DNA from: Hymenobacter taeanensis
GTDB taxonomy: Bacteria; Bacteroidota; Bacteroidia; Cytophagales; Hymenobacteraceae
Direction of reading: 5' to 3'
Length of the DNA: 64,000 bases
Assembly: GCF_013137895.1 (NCBI RefSeq)
Contig: NZ_CP053538.1
Span: 2,759,001-2,823,000, forward strand
A model generated the notes under the pieces. That model was not told the origin of the DNA, made no database searches, and worked only from the letters and a program-made list of their open reading frames with translations. Both the position numbers and the translations under genes were made by a program. The first letter of the stretch is position 1. Each line of letters starts with the position of its first letter. This document shows, in pieces, positions 4,282 to 63,278 of the stretch.

Positions 4282-4602
4282 TCAAGGATATAGACGAATT
4301 CGTCGGATTTTCCGGATTCCGTTTACAGCAAAAAGCCCGCTTTCCTGAAGAGGAAGGCGGGCTCTTTGTTTCCGGGAAGTGGGTTGTAACGTGACAATCT
4401 GTGTTGCGATGAGCAGCAAAACAAATTATTACGACTTGACACACTACCACCTGCTAGCTATACACATAGCAGAGAGGATAAGTCAAGTCATAAAACCATT
4501 GTGGTCTTATGACCCCTAGGCCACTTCTGAAAGGTAGCCTAGAGCTTACTGTATCAAGGAGTGTAGAGCTGCCGCGTTGAGAGTAGTTCCAACGCGTTCA
4601 GG
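4282..4602. other. intergenic spacer between dnaJ and the receptor operon
   Basis: This 321-base stretch holds the dnaJ terminator and one CTAGGCCA octamer (4516-4523). A weak inverted repeat (4533-4540 with 4600-4607) reaches the stop codon of the convergent receptor gene and could help end that transcript. No coding frame is supported. Confidence 0.6.
4334..4372 (+). terminator. terminator of grpE-dnaJ
   Basis: Arms 4334-4346 and 4351-4363 pair over 13 positions with one wobble around the loop GAAG, followed by a T-rich stretch, 53 bases after the dnaJ stop. Confidence 0.85.
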
Positions 4603-7080
4603 CTACCACTTGACAGCCGCTGTCAGGAAGAAGCTGCGCGGATCGGAGGGTAGTATGCCGGGACCAGGGTAACCAGTGGCGCGGCGGGTGAAGTAGATGG
4701 TGTTGCTCAGGTTGTTGACGCTAGCTTCCAGTTTCAGCCAGCGCCGCTCCCATAAAAGGGAAGCATCCCAAATGTGATAAGCCGGAATTAGGCCTACCAC
4801 GGCGGAATTGGCATCGGGCAGGCGGTCTTGGGGGCTGTTAGGAGCATTAGTGGCCTCCGAAAACTGGTCCGATAGGTAGGTGAATTGAACGGAGGCCTTG
4901 AAGGGACCGAAACCGCCCTGCATGCCCGCCTTTAGATTTACGCTAGGCACAAACTCCACCTGCTTGCCTACTACCTGCTTATTCTGGCTGGCTGTATAGC
5001 GGCTGCGAATCAGGGCCACGTTGCCAAACGTTGACCAGCGCCAACGGTCTGACCCAGTGGCAAGGTTAAGGCGTTGCAGCATATCCACCTCCGCGTAAGA
5101 CTCCACGCCTAGAATTAGGGCTCGGCCAATGTTGCCGCGGAAGCGGAGGATACGGTCGTTTGCGTCGAAGGTCTGCACTTCCCCAATGCGATTATTATAG
5201 CGCAGGGCAAACAGGCTCAGGTCGTAAGTCAGCCACTGTTCCTGCTCGCCACGGAGACCTAGGTCGGCGGAGTAGCCACGCTCGTCGCGTAAGTTAGGGT
5301 CAATTACCAGTGAGTTGTTGGCAAGCTGCATGTCGCTGAAGGTAATGGAGCGGTAATTCTGCGAAATGTTGGCGTAGAACTCACGCTGTTCCACCGGCTT
5401 AAAGCTGGCACCCAGCCCTCCAATCACAAACCCACGGGGGCTGGTGCGCTGCTCCCGGTAGGTATTGCTGGCAATGATGTTGTTGGCCAGGTCGCGCTCC
5501 ACGCTGCCATAGCTGCCTTCAGCGCGAGTCCGGATGTACTCGTAGCGTAGGCCAGGGGTGAGAGAAAACTTCTCGCCGAAGTAAAAGATGTTTTCGGCAA
5601 AAAGCGCCGCGTTGTAGTTAGGAAAGCGATAGTCGGAGTAAGACGACTGGCTGCTCAGGCCCTCCGAAGGGTCAACGAAGCGGAAATCAGCTTTGCGGCC
5701 CGCCGGCCCAAAGCCCTGCACGTTATGGCTGTAGCCACGGTATAGGCGCGTGCCTACCAGCAGCACTCCGCTCTTGCTGTCGCCGAGGCCGTACCGATTT
5801 AGGTAGCGGGCCTCGAGACCTACGTTACGGAACTGACCCGAAATCAGGTCGCGCAGCTGCGTATCGTCGTCGGCGCGCTCCACGAAGTTAGGCCGGTAGC
5901 CCAGTGACTTACGCGAAGCTACCAGGGCGAAGGTGGTCAGGTTAATATTTGCGCGTGGATTGAGTTTCCAATCGGCCGACAGGTTAAACAGGTTCCAGTC
6001 AACATCAAACCAGTTGCGGGCCCGGTTCGACTGCCGCGCATCGCGCGCAAACTGCCGGTCGCTGAGGCCCCCTGGCTGCTGAGCCAGGTAATCCATGTGA
6101 GTAAACTGGCCCCCAAGCTTCAAGTTCTCCGTTAGCTGGTAGCGCACATCGGCATAGGCTGTTTTGCTGTCGAAGTGGGAGTTGAGACGCCACCCGTCGC
6201 CACGCTTGTACTGGGCGAAGCCGTAGTAGCTGAGCTTCTTTACCGTGCCGCTCACACTATTGAAAGAATTAAAGAAGCCGTAGGAGCCCACCGACTGGCG
6301 CGATACTACGCTTACGGTCTTGTCAGGCTCGGGCTGACGTAGCTCAAAGTTGAGCAAGCCACCGAACTGGGTGCCGTACTGCAGCGAGGCTGCCCCACGC
6401 ACCAGCTGAATACGCTTGATGGCCTCCGTGGGCGGGGTGTAGTAGCTTTCAGGGTAGCCTAGCGCATCGGCAGAAATGTCGTAGCCGTTCTGCCGGACGT
6501 TGAAGTTGGCTGTGCGGTTGGGGTCTAGGCCTCGTCCGCCAATGCTCAGCTGCAGCCCGCCCTGGTCGCTTTCCCAGATGTTTAGCCCCGCTACTCGCGA
6601 GTAAACCTGCCGGGCATTGTTGGTAGCTAGGTTGGCCACTAGGTTGTCGGGGATGATGACCTCCGACTTTTTAGCCGCGAAGATGGCGGTGCCTTCCACT
6701 TCGCGCAAGCGCGTTTGCCCGAACTTGGTCTGTTGGGCGGCCACTACCACCTCCCGGAGCTGACGCTCTCGGCGGGTTAGCTCAAAATCAACCTCGCCGC
6801 CCTCGGCAGACACTTTTACCTCAGTGCGTAGCGGCTCGTGGCCGATAGAGGAAAGTTGAAGCTGCAAGCGGCCGGGAGCCAAGCGGTTCAGGGTAAACAC
6901 GCCGGCGCTGTCGGTGCGGGCAATTTGGCGAGAGCCACGCACATATACCTCGCAGCCGCTAACGGGCTGGCCCTTACCCGCCTCACGTACGCGCCCCTGC
7001 AGGCTAACCTGCTGGGCTACTACGGCGGTACCTGTGAGCATACTAGCGACTAGCGCCGCGCTATAAACCGGTAATTTCAT
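4603..7080 (-). CDS. TonB-dependent receptor, FecA-like
   Basis: Outer-membrane receptor of 825 residues. A signal peptide of about 22 residues is followed by a carboxypeptidase-like beta domain (about 24-108), a plug domain with an IGGRGLDPNR segment and a VRGAASLQYG segment, and a 22-strand-type barrel ending in an aromatic-rich last strand. The plug and barrel resemble the ferric-citrate-type receptors, but the ligand cannot be read from sequence. I chose the ATG at 7080, which starts the signal peptide; it lies inside the last 20 bases of the preceding HTTM gene, implying coupled translation. It is the last gene of the DUF4856-imelysin-HTTM operon. Confidence 0.92.
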   Translation of the reverse strand: MKLPVYSAALVASMLTGTAVVAQQVSLQGRVREAGKGQPVSGCEVYVRGSRQIARTDSAGVFTLNRLAPGRLQLQLSSIGHEPLRTEVKVSAEGGEVDFELTRRERQLREVVVAAQQTKFGQTRLREVEGTAIFAAKKSEVIIPDNLVANLATNNARQVYSRVAGLNIWESDQGGLQLSIGGRGLDPNRTANFNVRQNGYDISADALGYPESYYTPPTEAIKRIQLVRGAASLQYGTQFGGLLNFELRQPEPDKTVSVVSRQSVGSYGFFNSFNSVSGTVKKLSYYGFAQYKRGDGWRLNSHFDSKTAYADVRYQLTENLKLGGQFTHMDYLAQQPGGLSDRQFARDARQSNRARNWFDVDWNLFNLSADWKLNPRANINLTTFALVASRKSLGYRPNFVERADDDTQLRDLISGQFRNVGLEARYLNRYGLGDSKSGVLLVGTRLYRGYSHNVQGFGPAGRKADFRFVDPSEGLSSQSSYSDYRFPNYNAALFAENIFYFGEKFSLTPGLRYEYIRTRAEGSYGSVERDLANNIIASNTYREQRTSPRGFVIGGLGASFKPVEQREFYANISQNYRSITFSDMQLANNSLVIDPNLRDERGYSADLGLRGEQEQWLTYDLSLFALRYNNRIGEVQTFDANDRILRFRGNIGRALILGVESYAEVDMLQRLNLATGSDRWRWSTFGNVALIRSRYTASQNKQVVGKQVEFVPSVNLKAGMQGGFGPFKASVQFTYLSDQFSEATNAPNSPQDRLPDANSAVVGLIPAYHIWDASLLWERRWLKLEASVNNLSNTIYFTRRATGYPGPGILPSDPRSFFLTAAVKW

Positions 7081-8428
7081 CGTCGAAGGGTAAAATCCAG
7101 GGCTTGGCCCGCAGGTCATCGTGGATGCGGGCCAAGTTCACGGAAGGGTCAATGAACGCCTTGCCCAGTCGCCCGTTCAGGCTGACGTAGGCATCGGCGT
7201 ACACTTGGGGAGCATACACACCTTGGCGTGCATAATAGTCGCGCAGGTAGTGAGCAAACTGCACAATCATGTCAGGCTGGGTGCTCATCATTTTTTCCTG
7301 CAGCACGCTCAGGTGTTCGTAATTGTTAACCAGCAAAGCCCGCTTAGTTTGGCTGTCGACCACCCTAAACTGCACCTGGCCCATCTTTTCCATCAGCATC
7401 ACCCGCCAGGAAAAACGGTAGCCTTCCTCCGTCCAGAACAGCTCATGAGGATACAGCAGGTAGCGGAACGGCAACAGCAACTGAACCAGGAAAAAGACGC
7501 CCAGTGCGCCGAGTAACAACTGCCGCTGCACAGGGTTGTAATGCAAGGGAACCACCGGCCGCTGAGGAGCGGAGTCACGGCGCAGCAGCCCCTGTAGGCG
7601 TTTCAGTACCCGCTCGTGCCACTCAGCTGGGAAGAAAATCAGCGCCGCCACCATCATCACGTATGGGAACATGCCAATGGGAAACAGGATGGCCGTCAGC
7701 ACATGGAACACCACTACGGTAACATAGGCCAGGGGCCGGGTGCGGCGGTTAAGCAGGAAGTACGGTATTGTCAGGTCATAGAGGGCGCCGAACCAGCTGA
7801 AAGCGTAAGCCACCCACAACTGGCCTAGCAAAGGCCCAATCAGGGGTAAATCATTCTTGGCCGGTAGCCAGATGCGTAGTGGCATAGCGTGCACCAGCCA
7901 GTCGGAGTTAAGTTTAGCTAGGCCAGCGTAGCAGTACACTATGCCCATGAGCAAGCGCAGAGCATCAACGGTCCAGCGCGGCACCTCGTTACGCCAGCGT
8001 TGCGGGTGCCGGTGGGCGTCGAAGGAGAAATAGCGTCCGGCTGGCAGCATGATGAGTAGCAACGCTACCAGACTCACGAAGTAGTAGTGGTTCAGGTAGG
8101 TGCTCTTGTCCATGAGTTCGATGTACGTGAAGCTCAGGAACAGCCCAATGCTGGCAGTGCGGTACCAGTAGCCCACGGCTACCAGCAGCGCACATAACCC
8201 ACACACTACAAACAGGCCATACGTGTACATGCCCAGCGGCCGCACCCACTCAAAGCCATAGTAGCTGAAGAAAAACTTCGGGCGCAGATACAACTCCGCA
8301 ATCCACCCTTTCGCCCAAAAACGCACTACGCTGGCCAGTACCAGCAGCCCGAAAGCCAACCGGAACGTAGCCAGCGGAGCCACTGGGGTAAGTGAAGAGA
8401 AGTAGCGCTGCAGGGAGCTACTAAGCAT
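7061..8428 (-). CDS. HTTM-domain integral membrane protein
   Basis: A 455-residue protein with about eight to ten hydrophobic segments in the first 330 residues and a soluble C-terminal domain. The N-terminal part (APLATFRLAFGLLV..., YYWYRTAS-like helices, a PAKNDLPLIGPLL segment) matches the HTTM (horizontally transferred transmembrane) family, related to vitamin-K-dependent gamma-glutamyl carboxylase. Whether it carboxylates anything is not shown. Its ATG overlaps the stop of the imelysin gene by one base (TAATG), and its end overlaps the receptor start, so the three are tightly coupled. Confidence 0.85.
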   Translation of the reverse strand: MLSSSLQRYFSSLTPVAPLATFRLAFGLLVLASVVRFWAKGWIAELYLRPKFFFSYYGFEWVRPLGMYTYGLFVVCGLCALLVAVGYWYRTASIGLFLSFTYIELMDKSTYLNHYYFVSLVALLLIMLPAGRYFSFDAHRHPQRWRNEVPRWTVDALRLLMGIVYCYAGLAKLNSDWLVHAMPLRIWLPAKNDLPLIGPLLGQLWVAYAFSWFGALYDLTIPYFLLNRRTRPLAYVTVVVFHVLTAILFPIGMFPYVMMVAALIFFPAEWHERVLKRLQGLLRRDSAPQRPVVPLHYNPVQRQLLLGALGVFFLVQLLLPFRYLLYPHELFWTEEGYRFSWRVMLMEKMGQVQFRVVDSQTKRALLVNNYEHLSVLQEKMMSTQPDMIVQFAHYLRDYYARQGVYAPQVYADAYVSLNGRLGKAFIDPSVNLARIHDDLRAKPWILPFDDEITGL

Positions 8429-11059: not shown

Positions 11060-11563
11060 GTGCCAACCCCCCTTTCTGCCGAGCCGTTTGTGGCCTATGT
11101 GAATGCCCACCAGCCGATGCTGCACCGCATCTGCCGGATGTACTGCGCCGATGCCGACGACCGCCAAGACTTATACCAGGAGATTGTGCTGCAGCTCTGG
11201 CGGGCGTATCCGCAGTATGAGGCGAGGGCGAAGTTCAGCACCTGGCTCTACCGCATTGCCCTGAACGTAGCCATCTCCGACCTGCGCCAGCGTAGCCGTA
11301 AACCAGTGGCCGAGCGCTTCGGCGACACGGTGCCGGACGTGGCTCCGCCGCCCGATGCGGGCCCCGATGCGGAAGACCTAGGCCAGTTATACCGCGCCAT
11401 TGAGCGGCTTTCGGATGTGGAAAAGGCCTTCGTGCTGCTGTATCTGGAGGAGCGCACTTACGAGGAAATGGCCGACATCCTGGGCATCACCCAAAACCAT
11501 GTGCGCGTGAAAATGCACCGCGTGCAAGACAAGCTTCGCCACCTACTAACTCAACCAGCCTAA
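11060..11563 (+). CDS. ECF-type RNA polymerase sigma factor
   Basis: A 167-residue sigma-70 family ECF factor. Region 2 is at about 15-85 (DRQDLYQEIVLQLW, then STWLYRIALNV) and region 4 at about 110-160 (a TYEEMADILGITQNHVRVKMHR helix-turn-helix). The start is GTG. The next gene, a membrane protein, starts on the last base of its stop codon, the usual arrangement of a sigma factor and its membrane anti-sigma factor. Although it diverges from a FecA-like operon, the partner is not a FecR-type protein, so control of that operon is not established. Confidence 0.93.
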   Translation: MPTPLSAEPFVAYVNAHQPMLHRICRMYCADADDRQDLYQEIVLQLWRAYPQYEARAKFSTWLYRIALNVAISDLRQRSRKPVAERFGDTVPDVAPPPDAGPDAEDLGQLYRAIERLSDVEKAFVLLYLEERTYEEMADILGITQNHVRVKMHRVQDKLRHLLTQPA

Positions 11564-13311: not shown

Positions 13312-14706
13312 ATGGACTCTAAATTCTGGCTTGTTGCTCAACGCGAATATCTTACCCGGGTACGCAAGCGTAGCTTTCTGATTTTAACCCTGCTCGTGCC
13401 ATTGCTGATTGCGGGCTTCGGTTTCTTCGTGGCTAAAATTGCCATGTCAGACAACGACACCGTGGATGTGGTGCGCGTGCTTGATGCCAGCGGGCAAGGC
13501 GTAGGTAGCCGCCTTACTTCCATTAAACAACTCCAGTTTGTACCCGTGCAGGGCAACCTGGAAGATGCCAAAAAGACCTACCTCAAGTCTGATGATGCCG
13601 GGCTGCTGTACCTGCCCGCGGGCCTCTCGCCCCAAAATACCGGGGGCGTACAGCTATTTGCTAAAGGCAACGTAAGCCTGAAAAAGCAAGCCGCGGTAGA
13701 GTCGGCCCTTAACAAGACCTTTTCCGATCTGAAGATGCAGCAGTCGGGCCTCTCACAGGAGAAGCTGGATCAGCTCAAGTCGAACGTAGATGTTACCAGC
13801 ATCAACCTGGATGAAAGCGGGAAGGAGAAGAACAGCAACGCGCTGGCTACCTCGGGTATCTCATACGCGCTGGCTCTGCTGATTTACATGTTCATCTTTA
13901 TTTACGGCGTGCAGATTATGCGCGGGGTAGGTGAGGAGAAATCGAGCCGGATTATGGAGGTGATGCTGTCGTCGGTGAAGCCGTTTCAGCTGATGATGGG
14001 CAAAATCATTGGTATTGCCGCCGTAGGCCTCACGCAGTTTTTACTGTGGGGCATACTTTCCTGGGGTGCCTCCACCATTGTGGGTACTTACGTGCTGGAT
14101 AAAATGTCGACCAAGAAAACGGAGGTTGCTGCCGCTGGTGCTACCACCACCGAAGATGGTCGCACGGTGGCGGCTGGCTCATCGGCGGGAGCGGGAGCTA
14201 CTATGGCACCCGGGCAAGCGCCCGATGCGGCCACGGCCATAGGCAACCGGTTCAGCGTATTTAAGGTGCTGGGGGAGCTGCCCATTGGCACCATTCTCTT
14301 TGGCTTCGTGATTTACTTCCTGGGGGGGTACCTGCTTTACGGGGCGCTGTTTGGCGCCATTGGGGCCGCCGTAGACGACCAGACCGATACCCAGCAATTC
14401 ATGTTCCCGATTACGCTGCCCCTGATTCTGAGCTACATCATTGGCGTGAGCGTTATTCTGCGCAACCCCGATGGGCCCGTGGCTTTCTGGATGTCGATGA
14501 TACCATTTACCTCGCCCATTGCCATGGTTATCCGGCTGCCATTTGGGGTACCCATGTGGCAGCTGGCTCTCTCTATTGTGCTGCTGATAATTGGGTTTAT
14601 TGGCACGGTATGGGTAGCCGCCCGCATTTACCGCGTGGGCATCCTGATGTATGGTAAGAAGGTAACTTACGGAGAGCTCTCTAAGTGGATGTTCTACAAA
14701 GGCTAG
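13312..14706 (+). CDS. ABC-2 type permease, NatB-like
   Basis: A 464-residue inner-membrane permease. One membrane helix near the N-terminus (residues about 20-42), a periplasmic domain of about 140 residues, then five or more helices from about 180 to 455. The segment GVGEEKSSRIMEVMLSSVKP is the conserved cytoplasmic loop of NatB-type permeases. A low-complexity Ala/Gly/Thr stretch around residues 265-305 interrupts the membrane domain. It pairs with the upstream ATPase; the exported substrate (sodium or another compound) is not known. A terminator follows. Confidence 0.92.
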   Translation: MDSKFWLVAQREYLTRVRKRSFLILTLLVPLLIAGFGFFVAKIAMSDNDTVDVVRVLDASGQGVGSRLTSIKQLQFVPVQGNLEDAKKTYLKSDDAGLLYLPAGLSPQNTGGVQLFAKGNVSLKKQAAVESALNKTFSDLKMQQSGLSQEKLDQLKSNVDVTSINLDESGKEKNSNALATSGISYALALLIYMFIFIYGVQIMRGVGEEKSSRIMEVMLSSVKPFQLMMGKIIGIAAVGLTQFLLWGILSWGASTIVGTYVLDKMSTKKTEVAAAGATTTEDGRTVAAGSSAGAGATMAPGQAPDAATAIGNRFSVFKVLGELPIGTILFGFVIYFLGGYLLYGALFGAIGAAVDDQTDTQQFMFPITLPLILSYIIGVSVILRNPDGPVAFWMSMIPFTSPIAMVIRLPFGVPMWQLALSIVLLIIGFIGTVWVAARIYRVGILMYGKKVTYGELSKWMFYKG

Positions 14707-14741
14707 GCCACTTCAGGTGTAGCTTATAGCTGAACGTACCA

Positions 14742-15713: not shown

Positions 15714-15896
15714 GTGGGCACTTGCTGGCAGCGTGAGCAGAACGCATAATCGGAATTAGCCTCCAGGCCACTACCCGGAGGTATTTCTTTCCCCACGCTG
15801 ACAGCAACTCTTTTTTCAAGGAACTGCCTCGAACAGCCTGATCTGCTACTGTACCTAAACTACTGGCCTAGGCGTAAAAAGTGCCTACCATCAACC

Positions 15897-18542: not shown

Positions 18543-20072
<1,530 letters not shown>

Positions 20073-20116: not shown

Positions 20117-20211
20117 ATTGAAATGAAAACCAGCTTCTATCAAATAATGAAAAGACTGTCATGCTGAGCGGAGCCAAAGTATCACGTATGCTGACGTCGC
20201 CTTACTAGCTG

Positions 20212-20313
20212 TCATGCTGAGCGGAGCCGAAGCATCTCTACCGCTTCGTTGAGCCGTCGTTAGGCCAGTTGAGGTAGTCAGAGGTAGAGATGCTTCGGCT
20301 CCGCTCAGCATGA
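20212..20313. repeat. intergenic inverted repeat, family A
   Basis: Perfect 31-bp arms (20212-20242 and 20283-20313) carrying GCTGAGCGGAGCCGAAGCAT, separated by 40 bases containing a TAGGCCAGTTG core. A partial, diverged arm copy precedes it at about 20159-20186. It fills the glpD-glpK gap. Related elements are at 23548, 27866, 50573 and 58380. Confidence 0.9.
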
Positions 20314-20340
20314 GGGTCCACTGTACTCGTTCTAGGCCAC

Positions 20341-21963
20341 TCAAACGACTGCATTTTCTAACGTTGTTGGTTTCTCCTTTAGCACGTAATGCTGTGCTAC
20401 CCTCGTAAAACCAGCTACTTGCTGCTCCTGCCACTGTTGGTCTTTACCGAGTTCCTGAGCCAACAGGGCGGCTACTGTTGGGGCTATGCGCAGGGCGGCG
20501 CGAGCATCCAGGAACAGCACCCGGACGCGCCGGGCCAACACGTCTTCCACGGTGCGAGCCATTTCGTGGCGGGCAGCCCACACTACCTCGGCTTGCAGGA
20601 ATTCTAGTGCTTCATCCAGCTTCTGGCCTAGCTCGGGCCGCTCGGTTATGAGCTGCTGAAGGGCCGGTAGGTCGGAGCCGTACACGTAGAGGTGGCTGCT
20701 GCGGTCGGAAGTAGGCTGAGCGCCGTGGATGGAGAGGTAAGCGGTTTGACTGGGAGCGAGGGGGAGCTTACCGAGGGCAATGGCTTTGTCGACCGTATCC
20801 TGGGCCATGCGGCGGTAAGTTGTCCATTTGCCGCCCGTGATGGTGATGAGGCCGCCCGGTGAGACGAGGATTTTGTGGCTGCGCGAAATCTCCTTGGTCT
20901 TCTCGGAGCCGTCTTGCGGAGCAGCCAGGGGCCGCAAACCCGCAAAGATGCTCAGCGCATCGCTGCGCTGGGGGGCGCGGGTGAGGTACTGGGCGGCAGT
21001 GCGCAGAATGAAGTCGATTTCCTCTTCCAGGGCCTGGGGCTCCAGGCTGTGCTCCTGGAGTGGGGTATCGGTAGTGCCCAGCACCACGCGGCCGTGCCAG
21101 GGCACTGCAAACAGCACGCGACCATCTTCGGTCTTGGGAATCATCAGGGCATCATCGCCGGGCAGAAACGACTTCTCCACCACAATGTGCACGCCCTGGC
21201 TGGGCCGCACCAGCTTGCGGGCACCGGGCTGGTCCATCTGCAGAATATCATCTACGAAAACGCCGGTGGCATTCACCACGACTTTCGCTCGCAGTTCGTA
21301 CGTGGTGCCGGTTTCTTCGTCGGTAGCCGACACGCCTGCCACCTGGCCTAGCGCATCTTTCAGCAGCCCGTGCACCCCGAAGTGATTGAGCAACACGGCG
21401 CCCTGCTCAATGGCCGTTTGCGCCAGGTTGATGGCCAGGCGGGCATCATCAAACTGCCCATCGTGGTAGAGCACGCCGCCCCGCAGACCCTGCGGCTTGA
21501 TGTTACTCAGGCGCTGCAGGGTTTCGTCTTTGCTAAGGTGCACCGAGGCGCCCAGGCTTAGCTCGCCGGCCAGCAGATCATACATCTTCAGGCCCATAGT
21601 GTAGAATGGGCCGCCCCACCAGTCGTAGTTCGGAATGATAAAATCTTGGTTTTTGACGAGGTGCGGCGCGTTTTTCAGCAGGAGGCCACGCTCGTAAAGA
21701 GCCTCGCGCACCAGGCCTACGTCGCCTTGCGCGAGGTAACGGACGCCGCCGTGTACCAGCTTGGTGCTGCGGCTGCTGGTGCCCTTGGCGTAGTCGGCCT
21801 GCTCCAGCAGCAGCGTTTTATAGCCCCGGCTGGCGCCATCGAGGGCAATGCCTAGGCCAGTTGCGCCGCCGCCAATCACGAGCAAATCCCAGAGCGGGTG
21901 CTGGGTAAGCTGTTGTAGAAGGTGTTCGCGCTGGAAAAGTAGTTCGGGTGGGGTTTGCTGCAT
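20341..21963 (-). CDS. glpD: aerobic glycerol-3-phosphate dehydrogenase
   Basis: FAD-dependent, membrane-associated oxidation of glycerol 3-phosphate to dihydroxyacetone phosphate, feeding electrons to quinone. 540 residues. The FAD-binding VIGGGATGLG is at about 27-36, followed by GTSSRSTKLVHGG, RYLAQGDVGLV and a late ITGGKWTTYRRMA. It acts directly after GlpK. Its upstream region holds the second copy of the shared 14-base box. Confidence 0.97.
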   Translation of the reverse strand: MQQTPPELLFQREHLLQQLTQHPLWDLLVIGGGATGLGIALDGASRGYKTLLLEQADYAKGTSSRSTKLVHGGVRYLAQGDVGLVREALYERGLLLKNAPHLVKNQDFIIPNYDWWGGPFYTMGLKMYDLLAGELSLGASVHLSKDETLQRLSNIKPQGLRGGVLYHDGQFDDARLAINLAQTAIEQGAVLLNHFGVHGLLKDALGQVAGVSATDEETGTTYELRAKVVVNATGVFVDDILQMDQPGARKLVRPSQGVHIVVEKSFLPGDDALMIPKTEDGRVLFAVPWHGRVVLGTTDTPLQEHSLEPQALEEEIDFILRTAAQYLTRAPQRSDALSIFAGLRPLAAPQDGSEKTKEISRSHKILVSPGGLITITGGKWTTYRRMAQDTVDKAIALGKLPLAPSQTAYLSIHGAQPTSDRSSHLYVYGSDLPALQQLITERPELGQKLDEALEFLQAEVVWAARHEMARTVEDVLARRVRVLFLDARAALRIAPTVAALLAQELGKDQQWQEQQVAGFTRVAQHYVLKEKPTTLENAVV

Positions 21964-23506: not shown

Positions 23507-23547
23507 GGTGGCTCATGAACCGTTGGATCTAGAAGAAACAATGGAAC

Positions 23548-23648
23548 GTCATGCTGAGCTTGTCGAAGCATCTCTACCGCTTCGTTGCTAGAAGCCGAGG
23601 CCAGTTGATTAGTCAGAGGTAGAGATGCTTCGGCAAGCTCTGCATGAC
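23548..23648. repeat. intergenic inverted repeat, family A
   Basis: 31-bp arms (23548-23578 and 23618-23648) with two mismatches, of the GTCATGCTGAGC/GAAGCATCTC type. A further partial arm follows at about 23675-23701. The loop again contains AGGCCAGTTGA. Confidence 0.85.
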
Positions 23649-24609: not shown

Positions 24610-24713
24610 TTGGGGAAGCGCGTTGGGTAACACACTACCACAAGCGGGCAACACTGGCCTAGCAGGCTTGGAAAGCGGCAACGTATCTTTCCTATTCCAT
24701 TCCTGCTCCGTTT

Positions 24714-48025: not shown

Positions 48026-49108
48026 ATGAAGTTGTCTGTTGCGCGTTACGTTCCCCGCACCCGTCGAGCCGTCAGAAGTCTGGTTAAGCTGCATGATGCG
48101 CCGTGGCGCTGGAAAGTAGGGCTGGAGGCCAGCTTAGCCATTGGCCTACCCGTGGCGGTGTTTACGCTGGCTGGCAACCAAGCATGGGGTCTGCAGGCCG
48201 CTTTAGGAAGTTTCACCGCTTTGTACGGCGCCTCGCTTAGTCGCCAAAACCGCGCCCTGTTGTTGCCGTTTGTGGCAGCTGGGCTGGTGCTGGCGGCGGC
48301 CCTGGGTATTGCCTGTGCTGGCAATGAATGGCTGCCCGTAGCGTGCTTGGTGCTGGTAAGTGCGCTTGCCTCAACACTGGTATTGGGTTTTCGGCTGGGG
48401 CCGCCCGGCCCCATGATGTTTGTGCTGGTGGCAGCCGTGAGTGGCCACATTGCCGCGCCTGCTGCGCTGGATGGCGCCGGCCAGCCTGGCCTACGGCTGC
48501 TGGGACTAGTGGCCGCAGGGGCCGGATTGGCCTATTTTGTGGTAGTGATGCCGCTACTGATACCGGGGCGGCGTTATTCAGCATCGGTGGGGTTAGGCGT
48601 ACTACTGCCGCGGTTAAGCTTTGACAGGGATACTGCTGCTGTTGCCTTACGGGTGGTAGTGGCTGTATTAATAGCCAGCTTAGTGGCTAGGCCATTGGGC
48701 GCGCACCGAGTATACTGGGTGGTGCTATCGGCGGTGGCGGTGCTGCAGTCCAGCCCCTCGCGGCAGCTTACTGGCCTGCGGGCGGTACATCGGGTAGTGG
48801 GCACGCTGTTAGGGATAGGCCTGTTTGAGCTGCTTTCACTGTTGCACCCAATAGGTTTGGGGCTAGTGGCCGCGCTCATGCTGCTGCAAGGCGCCACTGA
48901 AGTTGTGGTAGCCCGAAACTACGCCTTTGCGCTGCTCTTTATCACGCCCATAGCCCTGTTAAACGCCACTGCCGGCCATGCCGGCAATACGCTGGTTACA
49001 GTAGAAGGCAGGGTGCTGGATACGTTGCTAGGAGCAGGTATTGCCTTGGTACTGTTCTGGTTTAGTGAGTTGCTATTGCGCCCACGCCATGATAGAACTG
49101 CTGCATAG
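48026..49108 (+). CDS. FUSC-family membrane protein
   Basis: A 360-residue inner-membrane protein with two blocks of helices (about 30-180 and 205-350). The second block (YWVVLSAVAVLQSSPSRQLTGLRAVHRVVGTLLGI) has the FUSC/YccS signature, including the HR-x2-GT motif. Relatives export aromatic acids or are of unknown role. The usual cytoplasmic domain is absent, so this is a short form. It has no transport partner nearby. Confidence 0.87.
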   Translation: MKLSVARYVPRTRRAVRSLVKLHDAPWRWKVGLEASLAIGLPVAVFTLAGNQAWGLQAALGSFTALYGASLSRQNRALLLPFVAAGLVLAAALGIACAGNEWLPVACLVLVSALASTLVLGFRLGPPGPMMFVLVAAVSGHIAAPAALDGAGQPGLRLLGLVAAGAGLAYFVVVMPLLIPGRRYSASVGLGVLLPRLSFDRDTAAVALRVVVAVLIASLVARPLGAHRVYWVVLSAVAVLQSSPSRQLTGLRAVHRVVGTLLGIGLFELLSLLHPIGLGLVAALMLLQGATEVVVARNYAFALLFITPIALLNATAGHAGNTLVTVEGRVLDTLLGAGIALVLFWFSELLLRPRHDRTAA

Positions 49109-49216: not shown

Positions 49217-50545
49217 CTACATTCGCTTTACTACCAGCACGCGCTCCGTTTCTTCGGTCACTTTGAACCGCTCGTCGGGGCGGAAGCCAATAACCCAGGC
49301 AATTTTGCCGTCGGCGGAGCAGAGCACCTGCACGTTGTCTTTAAGATTGAGCGGTACTTTCTGGTCGATGAGGAAATCGGAGAGCTTCTTCTTGCCCTTC
49401 ATACCGATGGGCATAAACCAGTCGCCTTCCTGCCAGGCCCGCACAATGAGGGGGAACTTCAGCGCGTCCGCATCAAGGGCGGCTACGGCTTTACCGCGCG
49501 GGATGTCGAAGCCCTCTGCCACCTCGTGTAGCTCCGTGCGCAGGTGCAGGCCATCAATCTTGAGGGCTTCCTGGCCTAGCGCCAGCTGATGCGTGCCAAA
49601 CTTCGTGAGGTTTTTGCGGGTGATGACCAGCTGCTCCCGGTCTTTCACCAGCCGGTGCGTCGGCGACTCAAAGCGGCGGCCCGGCTCAGCCCCGAAGCTT
49701 TGCACAATGTCTTTGGTCACGATGTAGGAGAAACCGAAGGGGCGCAGTAGCTCGTGCAGCACCAGCGTGGTAGCGGCCGTTTTCTGCAGCATCCGGATAT
49801 CCAGGTAGGTGGCATCGGCTTCTTCGCGCTGGGCCTCGGCGGCGGTATCTTCTACGTAGCGGCGCACAATTTCCTCGGCCCCGCCCACGCGCTCGGCAGT
49901 AATCTGCAGGGTCTGGTCGAGGTTGGGGTTGATGTCGCGCAGGACCGGCAGCACCTCCAGGCGCAGGCGGTTGCGCTGGTACACGGGGCTGTCGTTACTG
50001 GCGTCTTCGCGCCACATCAGGTGGTGCTCCACCAAGTAGTCGTAGAGCTCCATTTTACCGATGGGCAGCAAGGGGCGCACGAGGTAGCCGTTCTTGGGCC
50101 GGATGCCATGCAGGCCCGCTAGGCCAGTACCGTGCGTGAGGTTAAGCAGCATGGTCTCGGCGGCGTCGCGCTGGTGGTGGGCGGTGGCTATGTAGGCCAG
50201 TCCCTGGGTCTGGCGCAGGCGCTCAAACCATTCGTAGCGCAGGGCGCGGGCGGCCATCTGCGTCGAGATGCCTTCCTGCTCGGCAAACTGCTTGGTCTGG
50301 AAGAACTCAGCGAAGTAGGGCACGTCGTACTTCTTGGCCAGCTTGCGCACAAACTGCTCATCGGCGTCGGCCTCTTCGCCGCGCAGCCCGAAGTGGCAGT
50401 GCGCCATGGCAAACGACTGGCCCAGCCGGTGCAGCACATCGGCCAGCACCACTGAGTCCATGCCCCCGCTCACAGCTACCAGCAAGGTATCAGTAGGGGA
50501 GAAGAGGTCTTGTTCTTGTATGAAGTGTTGAATGCGGTCGAGCAT
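49217..50545 (-). CDS. tilS: tRNA(Ile)-lysidine synthase
   Basis: Modifies C34 of the CAU-anticodon isoleucine tRNA to lysidine with ATP and lysine. 442 residues from the ATG at 50545; the frame runs upstream into a repeat element, which is not coding. The PP-loop SGGMDS is at 26-31, followed by AHCHFGLRGEEADADEQF, TAHHQRDAAETMLLN and GLHGIRPKNG. The C-terminal lysidine domain has WQEGDWFMPIGMKG and KKLSDFLIDQKVP. The gene is essential in most bacteria. Confidence 0.96.
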   Translation of the reverse strand: MLDRIQHFIQEQDLFSPTDTLLVAVSGGMDSVVLADVLHRLGQSFAMAHCHFGLRGEEADADEQFVRKLAKKYDVPYFAEFFQTKQFAEQEGISTQMAARALRYEWFERLRQTQGLAYIATAHHQRDAAETMLLNLTHGTGLAGLHGIRPKNGYLVRPLLPIGKMELYDYLVEHHLMWREDASNDSPVYQRNRLRLEVLPVLRDINPNLDQTLQITAERVGGAEEIVRRYVEDTAAEAQREEADATYLDIRMLQKTAATTLVLHELLRPFGFSYIVTKDIVQSFGAEPGRRFESPTHRLVKDREQLVITRKNLTKFGTHQLALGQEALKIDGLHLRTELHEVAEGFDIPRGKAVAALDADALKFPLIVRAWQEGDWFMPIGMKGKKKLSDFLIDQKVPLNLKDNVQVLCSADGKIAWVIGFRPDERFKVTEETERVLVVKRM

Positions 50546-50572
50546 GGAAGGTATTTTCAAGCGAACGAAGGA

Positions 50573-50678
50573 CGTCATGCTGAGCGCAGCCGAAGCATCG
50601 CTACCTGTGGCTAACTCTACTGGCCTAGGCCTATTGCAATGAAGCGGTAGCGATGCTTCGGCTCCGCTCAGCATGACG
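50573..50678. repeat. intergenic inverted repeat, family A
   Basis: 33-base arms (50573-50605 and 50646-50678) with one mismatch, carrying GCCGAAGCATCGCTACC in place of the usual CATCTCTACC. The loop contains TGGCCTAGGCC. It lies between divergent tilS and the lptA-like gene. Confidence 0.9.
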
Positions 50679-50753
50679 GGCGGATTACTGCCATGATAAC
50701 TGGCCTAGATCCGTACTATTTCACAAAGAAAACCGTTACCGACGGGCCTTCTG

Positions 50754-53855: not shown

Positions 53856-54434
53856 ATGTCGTCGCTGCACGGGCGTAAGATTTTGCTGGGCGTTTGCGGA
53901 AGCATTGCGGCCTACAAATCGGCGTTGCTGGTGCGGCTCCTGGTGAAGGCCGGGGCAGAGGTACAGGTACTCCTGACACCCTCGGCCCCGGCCTTTGTCA
54001 CGCCCTTAACACTGGGTACGCTCTCCAAAAACCCTGTTTTGCAGGGTTTTCTGAAGGATGAACGGGCGGGGGAGTGGCACAACCATGTGCACCTGGGCCT
54101 CTGGGCCGATGCCCTGGTAATTGCGCCCGCCTCGGCTAATACGCTAGGCCACCTGGCCAACGGCCTCTGCGATACGCTGCTCGATGCGGTGTATCTATCG
54201 GCCCGCTGCCCGGTGTTTCTGGCTCCCGCCATGGACCTTGACATGTACCAGCACCCCGCCACCCAGGCTAACCTGGCCCGCCTGCGCCAGTACGGCAATA
54301 CCGTCTGGGATTCACCTTCGGGGGAGTTGGCCAGTGGCCTGGCGGGCCCTGGCCGCATGCTGGAACCGGAGGAGATACAGGCAGCACTGGAGCAGTTTTT
54401 TAATGCGGCACCTGGCCTGTCAGCAACATATTAA
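53856..54434 (+). CDS. coaC: phosphopantothenoylcysteine decarboxylase (CoaC part)
   Basis: FMN-dependent decarboxylation of 4'-phosphopantothenoylcysteine in coenzyme A synthesis. A 192-residue flavoprotein: LGVCGSIAAYKSALLVRLL, HNHVHLGLWADALVIAPASANT (active-site His and PASANT), and APAMDLDMY. The last residues (LEPEEIQAALEQFF) correspond to the helix that precedes the ligase part in fused CoaBC. The ligase, coaB, is a separate gene 527 bases downstream, beyond an unrelated lipoprotein gene. Both halves look intact. Confidence 0.92.
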   Translation: MSSLHGRKILLGVCGSIAAYKSALLVRLLVKAGAEVQVLLTPSAPAFVTPLTLGTLSKNPVLQGFLKDERAGEWHNHVHLGLWADALVIAPASANTLGHLANGLCDTLLDAVYLSARCPVFLAPAMDLDMYQHPATQANLARLRQYGNTVWDSPSGELASGLAGPGRMLEPEEIQAALEQFFNAAPGLSATY

Positions 54435-54884: not shown

Positions 54885-54961
54885 AAATCCGAGGCAAGAG
54901 AACAGACTGTATGACGGATGCAGAGTCGCACCGTAACTCCTCTTATTCCATAATCACCACC

Positions 54962-55612
54962 ATGCACGTCCTCATCACTGCCGGCCCCACCTATGAACCC
55001 CTTGACCCCGTTCGGTTCATCGGCAACCATAGCACCGGCAAAATGGGCTACGCGCTGGCCGAAGCCTTTGCCGCCGAAGGAGCGGAAGTAACACTGGTGA
55101 GCGGGCCCACCAGTTTGCCTGATCCTGCTGATGCGCGTATTACCACCCAGCGCGTGCAAACCGCCGACGAAATGTACGCCGCTGCCGCTGCCGTAGCGCC
55201 TGCGGCAGATATTTGGGTATTTGCTGCGGCCGTGGCCGACTATAAGCCGCGGCAGATGGCTGAAAACAAGATTAAGAAGGACGGCGACACGCTCACATTG
55301 GAGCTGGTGAAGAACGTGGATATTGCCGGTACGCTAGGCCACACCAAACGCCCTGAACAATATTCCGTGGGTTTTGCGTTGGAGACGAATAACGAGCAGG
55401 CCTACGCCCTCGACAAGCTCCGGCGCAAGAACTTCGACTTGGTAGTGCTGAACTCCCTGCGCGACGCCGGAGCGGGTTTCCGCCATGATACCAACAAGGT
55501 GACGCTGCTGGAAGCCGGAGGGCAAATGACTATCTTTGAGTTAAAGCCCAAAGTTGCCGTGGCCCGCGACATTGTTGAGACTGTTCTTGCCCGCTACTCC
55601 CATCATGCGTAA
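54962..55612 (+). CDS. coaB: phosphopantothenate-cysteine ligase (CoaB part)
   Basis: Joins cysteine to 4'-phosphopantothenate with CTP, the step before CoaC. 216 residues starting at the ATG at 54962, which gives MHVLITAGPTYEPLDPVRF; the longer frame from 54911 adds a polar leader. GNHSTGKMGYALAEA, FAAAVADYKPRQMAENKIKK and the C-terminal FELKPKVAVARDIVE are typical. It ends overlapping the next gene start by 8 bases. Confidence 0.93.
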   Translation: MHVLITAGPTYEPLDPVRFIGNHSTGKMGYALAEAFAAEGAEVTLVSGPTSLPDPADARITTQRVQTADEMYAAAAAVAPAADIWVFAAAVADYKPRQMAENKIKKDGDTLTLELVKNVDIAGTLGHTKRPEQYSVGFALETNNEQAYALDKLRRKNFDLVVLNSLRDAGAGFRHDTNKVTLLEAGGQMTIFELKPKVAVARDIVETVLARYSHHA

Positions 55613-56677: not shown

Positions 56678-58351
56678 ATGCTGGTTGACCTTCGCATTCG
56701 CAATTATGCCCTGATTGAGCAGCTGGAGCTGCGACCCTCGGCTCTACTCAATATCATTACCGGCGAAACCGGCGCGGGTAAGTCCATAATGCTCGGCGCC
56801 ATTGGCCTGCTACTCGGCAACCGCGCCGACTCGCGCATGCTTTTTGACACGGAAAAGAAGTGCGTGATTGAGGGCCAGTTTGATATTTCCAGCTACCAGC
56901 TCCAGGATATCTTTGAGTCGGAAGACCTTGATTACGATACCCAGTGTATTCTGCGCCGTGAGATAAGCCCGGCCGGTAAGTCACGGGCCTTCGTGAATGA
57001 CACGCCCGTAACGCTGGAAACGCTGCGGAACATCGGGGCCAACCTGATGGACATCCACTCCCAGCACGACACCCTACTGCTCGGCGACGCAGTGTTTCAG
57101 CTAAACCTCCTGGACCTGTACGCTGGCCTGGTCCCCACCCGCGCGCAGTACAGCAACGCCTACCGCCAGTACCGTAAGCTGGAAGCCGATCTGAAAACCT
57201 TAGAAGACCAGGTAGCCCAGGCCAATAAGGAGCTCGATTACCACACGTTTCTGCTTAGTGAGCTGGAAGATGCGCGCCTCGACAACGAAAATCAGGAAGA
57301 AGTTGAGCAGGAGGTAAAGCAGCTGGAGCACGCCGAGGAAATCAAGTACAAGCTCACCCAGGCCATGCAAAGCCTAACGGAAAGCGAATACTGCGTAACC
57401 AGCGGCCTGAAAGAAACCGCCACGCTGCTAGGCCAGGTAGCTGCCTATTCCGACTCGTTCAAAGAACTGAAGCAGCGCCTGGATAGCTGCCTGATCGAGA
57501 TTCATGACATTTCGGATGAAATAGAAGCCGCCGAGCGTCGCACCGAAGGTGACCCCGCCCGCATTGATGAGCTGCAAGGCCGCCTTAATGTGCTCTACAG
57601 CCTGCAGCGCAAACACCAGGTGCGCGATGTAGTGGCGCTGCTGGCCGTACGCTCAGATCTGCGCGACAAAGTAGGCTCCGTGCTGAACCTGGACAAGCAG
57701 ATTTCCCGTCTCCGCCGCGACGCTGAAGCTGCATTGGCTACCGTAACCAAGCAGGCTGCCCGCTTGTCGGAGGCGCGCCGCAAGGTGTTCCCCAAGTTCG
57801 AGAAAGAGCTGGTAGGCCTATTGTCCGAGCTGGGCATGCCGCACTCGCGCATTGTGGTGCAGCACCAGGCCGGTGCCCCCGCCGCCAGCGGTATTGATAT
57901 CATCAGCATCCTGTTCACGGCCAATAAAGGTGCTCAGCCCCAAACGTTGAGCAAGTCAGCCTCGGGCGGGGAGTTCTCGCGCCTCATGCTATGCATAAAG
58001 TACATGCTGGCCGACAAAACAGCCCTGCCAACCATCGTGTTCGACGAAATTGATACTGGTATCAGCGGAGAAATTGCCGTGAAAGTAGGCCGTATGATGC
58101 AGCAAATGGCTAAGAAGCACCAGCTCATTGCCATCAGTCACCTGCCTCAGATGGCCGCCGCCGGCGACGCGCACTACTTCGTGTACAAGGAAGACCGCGC
58201 CGACCGTACCGTGAGCCGCATCCGGACTCTGGATCTGAATGAGCGCATCCAGGAAATTGCCCAGATGATTTCAGGCGCCAACCCCAGCCCAAATGCCTTC
58301 CAAAGTGCCCGCGAATTGCTGGCCATGCGCGGGGAAGAACTGGTGGGGTAG
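56678..58351 (+). CDS. recN: DNA repair protein RecN
   Basis: SMC-like ATPase in double-strand break repair, 557 residues from the ATG at 56678. Walker A GETGAGKS at about 29-36; a long central coiled coil (about 150-360); C-terminal signature SASGGEFSRLMLCIKY and Walker B PTIVFDEIDTGISGE. Length is normal. Confidence 0.97.
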   Translation: MLVDLRIRNYALIEQLELRPSALLNIITGETGAGKSIMLGAIGLLLGNRADSRMLFDTEKKCVIEGQFDISSYQLQDIFESEDLDYDTQCILRREISPAGKSRAFVNDTPVTLETLRNIGANLMDIHSQHDTLLLGDAVFQLNLLDLYAGLVPTRAQYSNAYRQYRKLEADLKTLEDQVAQANKELDYHTFLLSELEDARLDNENQEEVEQEVKQLEHAEEIKYKLTQAMQSLTESEYCVTSGLKETATLLGQVAAYSDSFKELKQRLDSCLIEIHDISDEIEAAERRTEGDPARIDELQGRLNVLYSLQRKHQVRDVVALLAVRSDLRDKVGSVLNLDKQISRLRRDAEAALATVTKQAARLSEARRKVFPKFEKELVGLLSELGMPHSRIVVQHQAGAPAASGIDIISILFTANKGAQPQTLSKSASGGEFSRLMLCIKYMLADKTALPTIVFDEIDTGISGEIAVKVGRMMQQMAKKHQLIAISHLPQMAAAGDAHYFVYKEDRADRTVSRIRTLDLNERIQEIAQMISGANPSPNAFQSARELLAMRGEELVG

Positions 58352-58379: not shown

Positions 58380-58470
58380 CGTCATGCTGAGCTAGTCGAA
58401 GCATCTCTACCGAGGCTAATTAATCAAGTTGGCCCGCAGTAGAGGCGCTTCGAAGGCGCTTAGCATGACG
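58380..58470. repeat. intergenic inverted repeat, family A, diverged
   Basis: Arms about 58380-58411 and 58439-58470, imperfect, with GTCATGCTGAGC and AGCATGACG ends and GAAGCATCTCTACC/GTAGAGGCGCTTC inner parts. It lies between recN and fabI. Confidence 0.75.
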
Positions 58471-58527
58471 TTCTTTATTTTTTTCGCCTCTTTTGTAATC
58501 CAAACCCTAATCAATTCCACTCGCCAT

Positions 58528-59349
58528 ATGTCCAACAACCTACTTGCTGGTAAGATCGGCATCATTTCTGGTGCCCTGAATGAAGAATCTATTGCCTGGA
58601 AGGTAGCCCTGAAGGCCCACGCCGAAGGCGCCCGCTTTGTGCTGACCAACGCCCCCCTCGCTATGCGCATGGGCGAAATCAATAAGCTCTCGGAGCAATG
58701 CAACGCGCCCATTATCCCGGCCGATGCTACCTCTATGGAGGACCTAGAAAAGCTGTTCAGCGGCGCCCAGGAGCAATTGGGCGGTAAAATCGACTTCGTG
58801 CTACACAGCATTGGCATGAGCGCCAACATCCGCAAGGGCAAGCACTACGGCGAGCTGAACTACGAGTGGTACCAGAAAACGCTGGATGTATCGGCTATGT
58901 CGCTGCACCGCATGCTGGCCGTGGCCGAAAAGCAGGATGCTTTCAATGAGTGGGGCTCAGTAGTAGCGTTGTCGTACATCGCCGCCCAGCGGGCCTTCCT
59001 TGATTATACCGATATGTCGCAGGCCAAAGCCATGCTCGAGAGCATTGCCCGCAGCTACGGCCAGCGCCTCGGCAAGCTGAAAAAAGTGCGCGTAAACACG
59101 GTTTCGCAGTCGCCCACCAAAACCACCGCTGGCACCGGCATCAGTGGCTTCGATGCGTTCTACGAGTACGCCGACCGTCTGTCGCCGCTGGGCAACGCCC
59201 CCGCTGAGGCCTGCGCCGACTACTGCATCTCACTGTTTTCGGACCTGACCCGCTACGTGACCATGCAGAACCTCATGCACGATGGTGGCTTCAGCACCAC
59301 CGGCATCTCGGAGGAAATTGTAGAGCTCATCACCAACAGCAAGGCCTAG
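58528..59349 (+). CDS. fabI: enoyl-ACP reductase FabI
   Basis: Last reduction step of type II fatty acid synthesis. 273 residues from the ATG at 58528; an upstream in-frame ATG inside the repeat element is not the start. It has GIISGALNEESIAWK (cofactor loop), SIGMSANIRKG, SYIAAQRAFLDYTDMSQAK with the catalytic Tyr-x6-Lys, and a C-terminal MHDGGFSTTGI. The short-chain-type Ser-Tyr-Lys arrangement is intact. Confidence 0.96.
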   Translation: MSNNLLAGKIGIISGALNEESIAWKVALKAHAEGARFVLTNAPLAMRMGEINKLSEQCNAPIIPADATSMEDLEKLFSGAQEQLGGKIDFVLHSIGMSANIRKGKHYGELNYEWYQKTLDVSAMSLHRMLAVAEKQDAFNEWGSVVALSYIAAQRAFLDYTDMSQAKAMLESIARSYGQRLGKLKKVRVNTVSQSPTKTTAGTGISGFDAFYEYADRLSPLGNAPAEACADYCISLFSDLTRYVTMQNLMHDGGFSTTGISEEIVELITNSKA

Positions 59350-59373
59350 GCCAGTCGTTAGTATGAAAAATGA

Positions 59374-62418: not shown

Positions 62419-63051
62419 ATGAAAATTGAAGACGCATACAATGAGTGGGCGGGTAGCTACGACACGGGCACCAACCGAACCCGCGACCTGGAGGCACAGG
62501 CTATCCGGGCCACTATTCCGCCGGGGCCCTACGCCGAGGTGATTGAGCTGGGCTGCGGCACTGGTAAAAACACCGAGTGGCTCGCTACCCAAGCCGGTCA
62601 CCTCACGGCGGTAGACCTATCGAAGGAGATGATGGACCGCGCCCGCCAGAAGCTGCCGCACCCGCACATCAACTTTCAGCCCGCTGATATTACCCAGCCG
62701 TGGTTCTTTGCCTCACGCCCCGCCGATCTGCTGGTGTGTAGCCTGATTCTGGAGCACATTGAGCACCTCGATGCCGTGTTTGCCCAAGCTCAGCAAGCCC
62801 TACGGGTGGGCGGATTGTTTTACGTGGGCGAGCTGCACCCCTTCAAGCAATACCAAGGCACTAAGGCGCATTTTGAGCGTGCCGGCGGCTCACTTTGTGA
62901 GCTGGAGTGCCACGTTCACCACATTTCTGACTACACCGAAGCCGCCCGCCAGCATGGGTTACGGTGTGCGCGCCTGCAGGAATGGTTTGATACCCACGAC
63001 CGTACCGGCATGCCGCGCATTATCTCCTTCCTGTTTCAGCGGGAAGACTGA
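62419..63051 (+). CDS. SAM-dependent methyltransferase
   Basis: A 210-residue class I methyltransferase. Motif I VIELGCGTGKNTEWL is near residues 40-54, then LTAVDLSKEMMDRAR, and DLLVCSLILEHIEHLD. The start is the ATG at 62419, shortly before AYNEWAGSYD. It is divergent from the phosphatase gene. The substrate cannot be inferred. Confidence 0.92.
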   Translation: MKIEDAYNEWAGSYDTGTNRTRDLEAQAIRATIPPGPYAEVIELGCGTGKNTEWLATQAGHLTAVDLSKEMMDRARQKLPHPHINFQPADITQPWFFASRPADLLVCSLILEHIEHLDAVFAQAQQALRVGGLFYVGELHPFKQYQGTKAHFERAGGSLCELECHVHHISDYTEAARQHGLRCARLQEWFDTHDRTGMPRIISFLFQRED

Positions 63052-63278
63052 GCAGGCCGCCTCGAAAGGCACTGTGGGTTTAGCTTAGTAGAAAGCGTAG
63101 GATCATAAAAGCTTTGTGGGCTGATTCTGTGCTTCGTTGCGTAGGTGGTTTCTCACCCATCTGGGCAAGCGTCTAGCTGAAACTCTAAGCACTTGTGCGA
63201 CAATCAGATAATTGACCCTTCTACCGTTAGCTACGCCTGTTGCGCTGCTCCATGAAAGCGAGGTGGCCTAGCGCGGTA
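63052..63278. other. spacer before the terminal lipoprotein gene
   Basis: 227 bases with a TGGCCTAG octamer (63264-63271) and no supported gene, hairpin or repeat. Confidence 0.5.

Follow-up and report, generated by a model that had tools for sequence, protein, structure and literature searches.

A genome-wide, non-palindromic iterated word in Hymenobacter that looks like a DNA recognition mark

Results

The window studied here is a 64,000-nucleotide stretch (NZ_CP053538.1, positions 2,759,001 to 2,823,000) of the complete 4,879,662-bp genome of Hymenobacter taeanensis (G000). It carries genes that we take, from their sequences, to be adk, obg and dnaJ, and its proteins include TonB-dependent receptors and a type IX sorting domain. 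The loci nearest to the adk of the window come from H. wooponensis (97%) and H. fodinae (96%), and an Rfam scan of the window returned no match at gathering cut-offs. Scattered through its genes and spacers are 39 exact copies, counted on both strands, of one octamer, CTAGGCCA; dinucleotide shuffles of the window contain 3.56 on average and 9 at most, and a third-order Markov model expects 2.4. A first-pass annotation of this DNA had reported at least 38 copies between positions 4516 and 63271 against about two expected; 38 copies do lie in that range, with one more at 3688, and the expectation agrees with the Markov figure.

The enrichment is not confined to the window. The whole genome holds 2,587 copies (1,296 forward and 1,291 reverse), while the same word read backwards occurs 60 times (22 + 38) and is thus about 43-fold rarer. 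In a 1.264-Mb sample of the genome, made up of 60 stretches of 20 kb taken round the chromosome together with the window and with 4,500 bases masked, we found 657 copies where Markov models of orders 1, 2 and 3 expect 72, 69 and 48. Orders 4 and 5, both of which absorb much of the motif, expect 117 and 271. These counts confirm that the iterated octamer is real and genome-wide. The first-pass annotation had called its enrichment striking because CTAG is a tetramer usually avoided in bacteria; the octamer is enriched as stated, while CTAG itself remains below expectation in the sample (0.74 observed/expected), so the enrichment is a property of the octamer and not of CTAG. GATC is also strongly under-represented, with 164 occurrences against 332 expected in the window and a ratio of 0.50 in 1.26 Mb of the genome.

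From the flanks of 655 copies and the counts of one-mismatch forms in the sample we derived the consensus S-T-A-G-G-C-C-A(or T)-S-T (STAGGCCAST). At base 1 we counted 657 C, 491 G, 57 A and 49 T, and the G1 form GTAGGCCA is strongly raised (491 observed, 75 expected, all one-mismatch expectations being computed with motif copies masked). Base 8 is A in 657 copies and T in 243, where 43 of this T8 form, CTAGGCCT, are expected. The two ends of the octamer are less fixed than first reported. Its proposed extension by G or C and then often T was borne out by C at 0.49 and G at 0.46 at position 9 and T at 0.59 at position 10. Outside these ten bases no frequency is above 0.47, and the strongest preference is for a G directly 5' of base 1. 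A depletion of the core one-mismatch forms, suspected at first, shrank once motif copies had been masked. The lineage thus carries a genome-wide element, STAGGCCAST with core CTAGGCCA, and both core and consensus are non-palindromic.

The element occurs in genes as well as spacers, as the first-pass annotation had noted in likening it to the HIP1 element of cyanobacteria. A simple gene finder, which called 865 genes and 75.5% coding DNA in the 1.264 Mb and probably undercounts, placed 355 copies in coding sequence and 302 in spacers, a spacer density 2.6 times that of coding DNA. Copies peak directly 3' of stop codons, a position at which the motif can supply the stop codon with its own TAG. 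Density is 1.59/kb in convergent spacers, 1.04/kb in tandem spacers and 0.81/kb in the divergent, promoter-bearing ones. Within genes 184 copies run with transcription and 171 against it, and in tandem spacers 93 and 74; leading and lagging strands carry 322 and 335 copies, with origin and terminus placed by cumulative GC skew only. The element is therefore without strand or transcription orientation. Counts per 20-kb stretch have a mean of 10.3 and a variance of 8.7 over the 60 stretches; with the window and one empty stretch (L118) left out, the variance/mean ratio is 0.68 over 59 stretches (lower-tail p 0.03), an even spread. Among paired copies only an overlap with a 4-base offset is enriched, the inverted pair TGGCCTAGGCCA, which is found at 21 places in 1.26 Mb; hairpin pairs are otherwise rare.

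Of the copies in the window the gene finder assigned 19 to coding sequence and 20 to spacers; as five of the 20 lie within long open reading frames (ORFs), the spacer share is at most this large. Copies within recognisable genes are those at 3688–3695 (plus strand) in dnaJ, named from its sequence, at 18685–18692 (minus) in an FGGY kinase gene, at 49572–49579 (minus) and 50119–50126 (plus) in the TilS gene, and at 57428–57435 (plus) in a RecN-like ORF named from its N terminus. Other genes hold plus-strand copies at 11378–11385, 21852–21859, 22283–22290, 23339–23346, 23863–23870, 24859–24866, 33070–33077, 35370–35377 and 54144–54151 and minus-strand copies at 20624–20631, 21344–21351, 38836–38843 and 42905–42912; the copy at 33070 is not kept in the three relatives aligned below. 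Two plus-strand copies, at 14703–14710 and 59346–59353, provide through their TAG the stop codons of ORF 13312–14706 and ORF 58429–59349, respectively. Four copies lie in spacers directly past a gene end (20332–20339 and 27936–27943, plus; 39522–39529 and 63264–63271, minus), and further spacer copies are at 4516–4523, 30723–30730, 31305–31312 and 31388–31395 (plus) and at 15864–15871, 24655–24662 and 50701–50708 (minus). The five scored as spacer but within long ORFs are those at 7821–7828 (minus) and 7918–7925 (plus) in ORF 7061–8428, at 39975–39982 (minus) in ORF 39604–40491, at 48687–48694 (plus) in ORF 48026–49108 and at 55334–55341 (plus) in ORF 54911–55612. The single overlapping pair TGGCCTAGGCCA of the window is formed by 32099–32106 (minus) and 32103–32110 (plus). 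One further copy, 50621–50628 (minus), stands close to the 5' end of ORF 49217–50674 (TilS), inside a dispersed repeat. The copies at 4516, 7821, 7918, 30723, 32099, 32103 and 50621 are unaligned to the three relatives.

That repeat is about 100 bp long and occurs in the window at 20211–20313, 23544–23648 and about 50575–50677, its third copy overlapping the 5' end of the TilS ORF. With two of its copies as queries, blastn gave 67 hits in 16 of 61 sequences from the same genome (self hits and both strands counted), and among the matches listed it also has many copies in each of three related genomes (G026, G120 and G121).

The window was aligned with syntenic DNA of H. wooponensis (G120), H. 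fodinae (G121) and the genome G026, to which it is 85.1%, 84.3% and 83.7% identical where aligned. Not all of the 39 sites aligned at full length, and 8, 8 and 14 of them, respectively, are left uncounted. Among the aligned sites the exact octamer is kept at 26/31, 27/31 and 20/25. The same positions shifted by 15–30 bases in steps of three, controls that are not independent of one another, are kept at 105/358, 81/359 and 62/300 (21–29%; Fisher p ~3e-9, 8e-13 and 3e-9). This comparison between relatives, suggested by the first-pass annotation, gives much the same result for sites scored as coding (15/18, 16/18 and 13/17) and as spacer (11/13, 11/13 and 7/8). Over the 77 comparisons identity is 0.94–1.00 at positions 1–8, 0.82 at position 9, 0.94 at position 10 and 0.68–0.91 outside; CTAG tetramers that are not part of CTAGGC are kept less well than the DNA around them, with 0.62 at their T and A. 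When the four genomes are compared with one another in both directions (12 directed pairs), which counts the same sites more than once, the octamer is kept at 368/522 sites and controls at 664/2,994, with a profile of 0.90–0.96 at positions 1–8, 0.84 at position 9, 0.85 at position 10 and 0.68–0.85 outside. The conserved footprint is positions 1–8, and the core stays intact in genes and spacers alike while the neighbouring DNA diverges.

The 154 pair sites at which the octamer is not kept comprise 74 single changes, 64 multiple changes and 16 gapped sites. The single changes cover all eight positions, the commonest being T2 to C (19), which indicates that the word is maintained as such and not through one type of mutation. 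Against 72 loci outside the clade we made 899 ortholog comparisons, of which 803 are gap-free and 96 gapped (10.7%, compared with 6.3% for controls); the exact octamer is present in 9/899 (1.0%), compared with 16.5% for controls. Since the sites align with ordinary orthologous sequence, mostly without gaps, the copies arose mainly by base substitution, and origin by insertion is rejected.

One region of the H. taeanensis genome is free of the word. No copy of CTAGGCCA occurs between 3,045,329 and 3,100,231 (54.9 kb; L218, L219, L118 and L220), for which the Poisson chance is about 4e-13 for a given stretch of such length, the region having been chosen because L118 was empty. It encodes a DnaB-type helicase, BrxL, AAA and Hsp70-like proteins, an AbiE pair, an impB/mucB-type polymerase and a PD-(D/E)XK protein and, holding BrxL together with mobile-type genes, is probably an acquired mobile or defence island. 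Its lack of the motif agrees with a mark that builds up slowly in resident DNA. In the G026 assembly 16, 19 and 2 copies lie in the opening 20 kb of contigs C2, C3 and C4, respectively, four small contigs (4.5–5.4 kb) hold 0, 3, 0 and 0, and a 1,074-base contig, apparently masked, holds none.

We counted the word on both strands of 120 Hymenobacter genomes. It exceeds 2,000 copies in four of them (2,587 in G000, 4,554 in G024, 4,306 in G026 and 4,381 in G119), a density of one per 1.2–1.9 kb; the next-highest counts are 544, 540 and 531, and most genomes have fewer than 200. G024 and G119 have the same copy numbers as the genomes from which the H. fodinae and H. wooponensis loci come. In a FastTree phylogeny of adk, obg and dnaJ, which is unrooted, rests on three proteins in 75 of 82 candidate taxa (the rest being too gappy) and was used without its support values, the window, G026, L001 and L002 group together, beside L023 and L025.

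A second word, CCTACCCC, is present at 1,521–5,122 copies in 12 of the 120 genomes and at 1,019 and 1,047 in two more; read backwards it occurs 117–221 times in the 12 rich genomes. Its four richest genomes hold 4,591–5,122 copies, about one per 1.1–1.2 kb, so the two words attain similar densities. CCTACCCC is at background in the four genomes rich in CTAGGCCA (257, 330, 201 and 279), and the 12 genomes rich in CCTACCCC hold 56–209 copies of CTAGGCCA. Each word is low where the other is rich, and the two therefore exclude each other.

A k-mer scan of 20-kb loci found further words, or dialects: CCTAGGT in L049 and L068, CCTAGGG in L053 and L068, GCTAGCC in L072, and CTACCCC and/or CCTACCC in L005, L007, L010, L019, L023, L025 and L052. 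In about 120 kb of each of four species, counted on both strands against an order-2 expectation, we found CCCTAGG 198 times in polaris (17 expected), ACCTAGG 110 times in setariae (18), CTACCCCC 107 times in ginkgonis (4) and CCCTACCC 80 times in citatus (4.5). Carriers of CTAGGCCA cluster in the tree while CTACCCC-type words are found in separate parts of it, so that this dialect is not confined to one clade. In many Hymenobacter species the 20-kb loci examined show no strong word.

Between pairs of loci of the same dialect, CCTAGG (sites counted on both strands of a 20-kb pair) is kept at 34/50 compared with 38% for controls, and in the other direction at 34/58 compared with 46%. CCTACCC is kept at 9/14 and 9/12 (38%) in one pair, at 5/13 (27%) and 4/10 (33%) in another and at 4/10 (40%) in a third, and CTACCCC at 6/10 (42%), 6/11 (30%), 13/18 (39%), 12/20 (44%) and 6/16 (34%). 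The control word CAGCAG gave 6/16, 6/28, 8/18 and 8/26 in its first four comparisons, near or below its controls, with 8/18 slightly above 37%. Across dialects the words are kept at about the control level or less (CCTAGG 10/30, 30%; CTACCCC 1/14, 20%, and 2/14, 14%).

Several other repeated words came up in the scan. GGGGCCC words (L042, L051, L054, L057) and AAAAAGCCCC words (L039, L043, L048) were set aside, by judgement, as driven by G+C content or terminator-like and were not taken for dialects; the AAAAAGCCCC words are strongly iterated in their three loci and are perhaps conserved terminator hairpins. GTAGGCC is raised in L035 (14, 2.2 expected) and L044 (8, 2.2 expected), two Hymenobacter loci without CTAGGCC enrichment. 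A GAATAGTGA-type word is present 14 times in a single 20-kb locus of H. psychrophilus (L027), perhaps as a tandem array. In Rufibacter immobilis (L075) the overlapping 10-mers GCCCCTAAAC, CCCCTAAACG and CCCTAAACGC each appear 8 times in 20 kb where 0.0 are expected, possibly a further iterated word outside Hymenobacter.

Five Pfam methyltransferase families were searched in the four genomes rich in CTAGGCCA (G000, G024, G026 and G119). PF00145 has 0, 1, 0 and 4 matches, the four appearing to be two split genes; PF01555 has 0, 0, 1 and 0; PF02384 has 0, 3, 1 and 1; PF07669 has 2, 2, 3 and 0, one of the two in G024 being below the cut-off; and PF02086 has none in any of the four. None of these families is common to all four genomes, and a methylase of these five kinds is thus not needed for the motif. 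Where CCTACCCC reaches 1,500 copies or more, PF00145 is found in 6 of the 12 genomes, PF01555 in 7 and neither in 2.

Discussion

To our knowledge, most examples of highly iterated words with dialects come from Neisseriaceae, Pasteurellaceae and cyanobacteria, and our literature searches naming Hymenobacter or Bacteroidetes, a partial survey, found no report of a motif such as STAGGCCAST. Among known systems it appears to behave most like the dialects of the DNA uptake sequence (DUS) of Neisseriaceae, being non-palindromic, replaced by other words in relatives at similar density, missing from the island and maintained at the level of the word. Like the DUS it is a word of about 10 bp with thousands of copies on both strands, and both groups have different words in different lineages; in the tree used here the CTAGGCCA carriers cluster and the CTACCCC-type words stand in separate parts, so that a fit of the dialects to the phylogeny is tentative. 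DUS dialects share the core CTG, and all dialect words named here contain CTA, which is a resemblance only. In Frye 2013 (PMC3630211) DUS dialects are described as tracking phylogeny and having a common 3-base core. The Hymenobacter dialect words, in contrast, differ more among themselves, many species lack a strong word in the loci examined, and a role of the Hymenobacter word in uptake is putative. The uptake signal sequence (USS) of Pasteurellaceae, according to PMC1939737, is a short iterated word thought to build up via uptake bias; the USS has a 29-bp consensus with AT-rich flanks, whereas the Hymenobacter word has no strong preference past position 10.

The word looks like a genome-wide DNA recognition mark, and we consider an uptake-like mechanism, to which we give a probability of about 0.4, the most likely of the causes weighed here. 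The density and strand balance of the word, its sharp footprint in coding and spacer sites, the spread of changes over all eight positions, its gain mainly by substitution, the second dialect of equal density and the motif-free island speak for it. A sequence-specific DNA-binding protein would read the word as a mark of self, acting on double-stranded DNA regardless of strand or gene. DNA bearing the local word would then be favoured in uptake or in homologous recombination, and word-bearing alleles would replace word-less ones by molecular drive. If the specificity of the reader were to shift, the genome would slowly gain a new dialect.

Several results weigh against this mechanism. The ATPase family of type II/IV pili (PF00437) was not found in any of 16 Hymenobacter genomes, whereas all 14 positive-control genomes gave a match, 13 of them over the cut-off. 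The known receptor route is thus missing, which argues against a standard uptake sequence, sets the word apart from the DUS and makes a reader of the Neisseria kind, a type IV pilus protein, unlikely. ComEC, the inner-membrane DNA uptake channel, speaks for uptake by its presence (one match to PF03772 in each of the 16 Hymenobacter genomes tested) but, being in all 16, does not explain a motif found in only some species. No report of natural transformation in Hymenobacter was found in a partial survey of the literature. Strong uptake drive should raise the one-mismatch forms, and these, with G1 and T8 excluded, are only weakly raised (1,479 observed, 1,219 expected). It is not sure that the footprint takes in the T at position 10, where identity is lower in the 12-pair set than in the 77 comparisons. 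The other dialect words are not established as conserved, since the excess over controls is small and the sites are few, and the control word CAGCAG was also kept between L005 and L007 (28/44 and 29/51, compared with 38%).

Cell-level selection on sites bound by an abundant protein of nucleoid organisation, segregation or repair, with no role in uptake, is a somewhat unlikely explanation that nevertheless agrees with the even spread of copies, the strong conservation of single sites and the absence of strand bias. It requires selection on thousands of single sites, some of them within genes, and for a nucleoid protein a rapid change of word inside one genus would be unusual. A mechanism of the kind proposed for highly iterated palindromes (HIPs) such as HIP1, in which the word is the target of an orphan methyltransferase and accumulates via methylation-linked mismatch repair or another function of methylation, is distinctly improbable. 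Elhai 2015 (PMC4390886) characterises HIPs by their link to methylation, and the density of about one copy per kb, the presence in genes and spacers and the replacement by alternate words in some relatives agree with that account; some dialect words moreover have palindromic cores, CCTAGG and GCTAGC. CTAGGCCA and CCTACCCC are not palindromes, and both the lack of a tested methyltransferase family common to the four rich genomes and the two CCTACCCC-rich genomes without PF00145 and PF01555 argue against a cyanobacterial HIP. The likeness to HIP1 drawn in the first-pass annotation therefore holds for a highly iterated, genome-wide word in genes and spacers and fails for HIP1 in the strict sense.

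Chi sites are oriented with replication. A recombination hotspot of the Chi kind, recognised by an enzyme of the RecBCD or AddAB type, would also be a short, over-represented, chromosome-wide word missing from an acquired island, but the near-equal leading and lagging counts, with origin and terminus taken from GC skew, mean that the word does not look like Chi; with some dialect cores palindromic and the words changing within the genus, we regard this as very unlikely. The raised spacer density and the peak directly past stop codons could speak for an operator, a terminator or an mRNA signal. Density is however highest in convergent and lowest in divergent spacers, neither genes nor tandem spacers show a clear sense or antisense preference, hairpin pairs are rare save for the 21 overlapping TGGCCTAGGCCA, and 355 of the 657 copies lie within called genes, which leaves a transcription-level element a slighter chance still. 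That the word is a by-product of codon usage or mutation bias is hardly credible: GTAG/CTAC is common in the genus (observed/expected 1.43–2.43 in the Hymenobacter loci and the window), but spacer copies are conserved too, the footprint is confined to the motif, the reversed word is far rarer, and most other Hymenobacter species are without the word. A methyltransferase of the five families searched, pilus-based uptake in the 16 genomes tested, a replication-strand bias and hairpin or terminator pairs other than the 4-base-offset overlap were each rejected.

The broader proposal, that Hymenobacter has a system of self-recognition with evolving dialects, working without type IV pili through a putative reader and shaping recombination and species barriers in Bacteroidota, is more doubtful than the uptake-like mechanism taken by itself. 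What is offered here is a clear case, in a genus of Bacteroidota, of two mutually exclusive genome-scale words, which opens the origin, spread and switching of such words to comparative testing. The dialects also give a route to the reader protein, whose DNA-contacting residues should vary with dialect. In Riemerella columbina, a member of the same phylum, own DNA is favoured in transformation through a signal given as unidentified in PMC7965970; if the word is an uptake mark, it may bear on this preference for self DNA in Bacteroidota.

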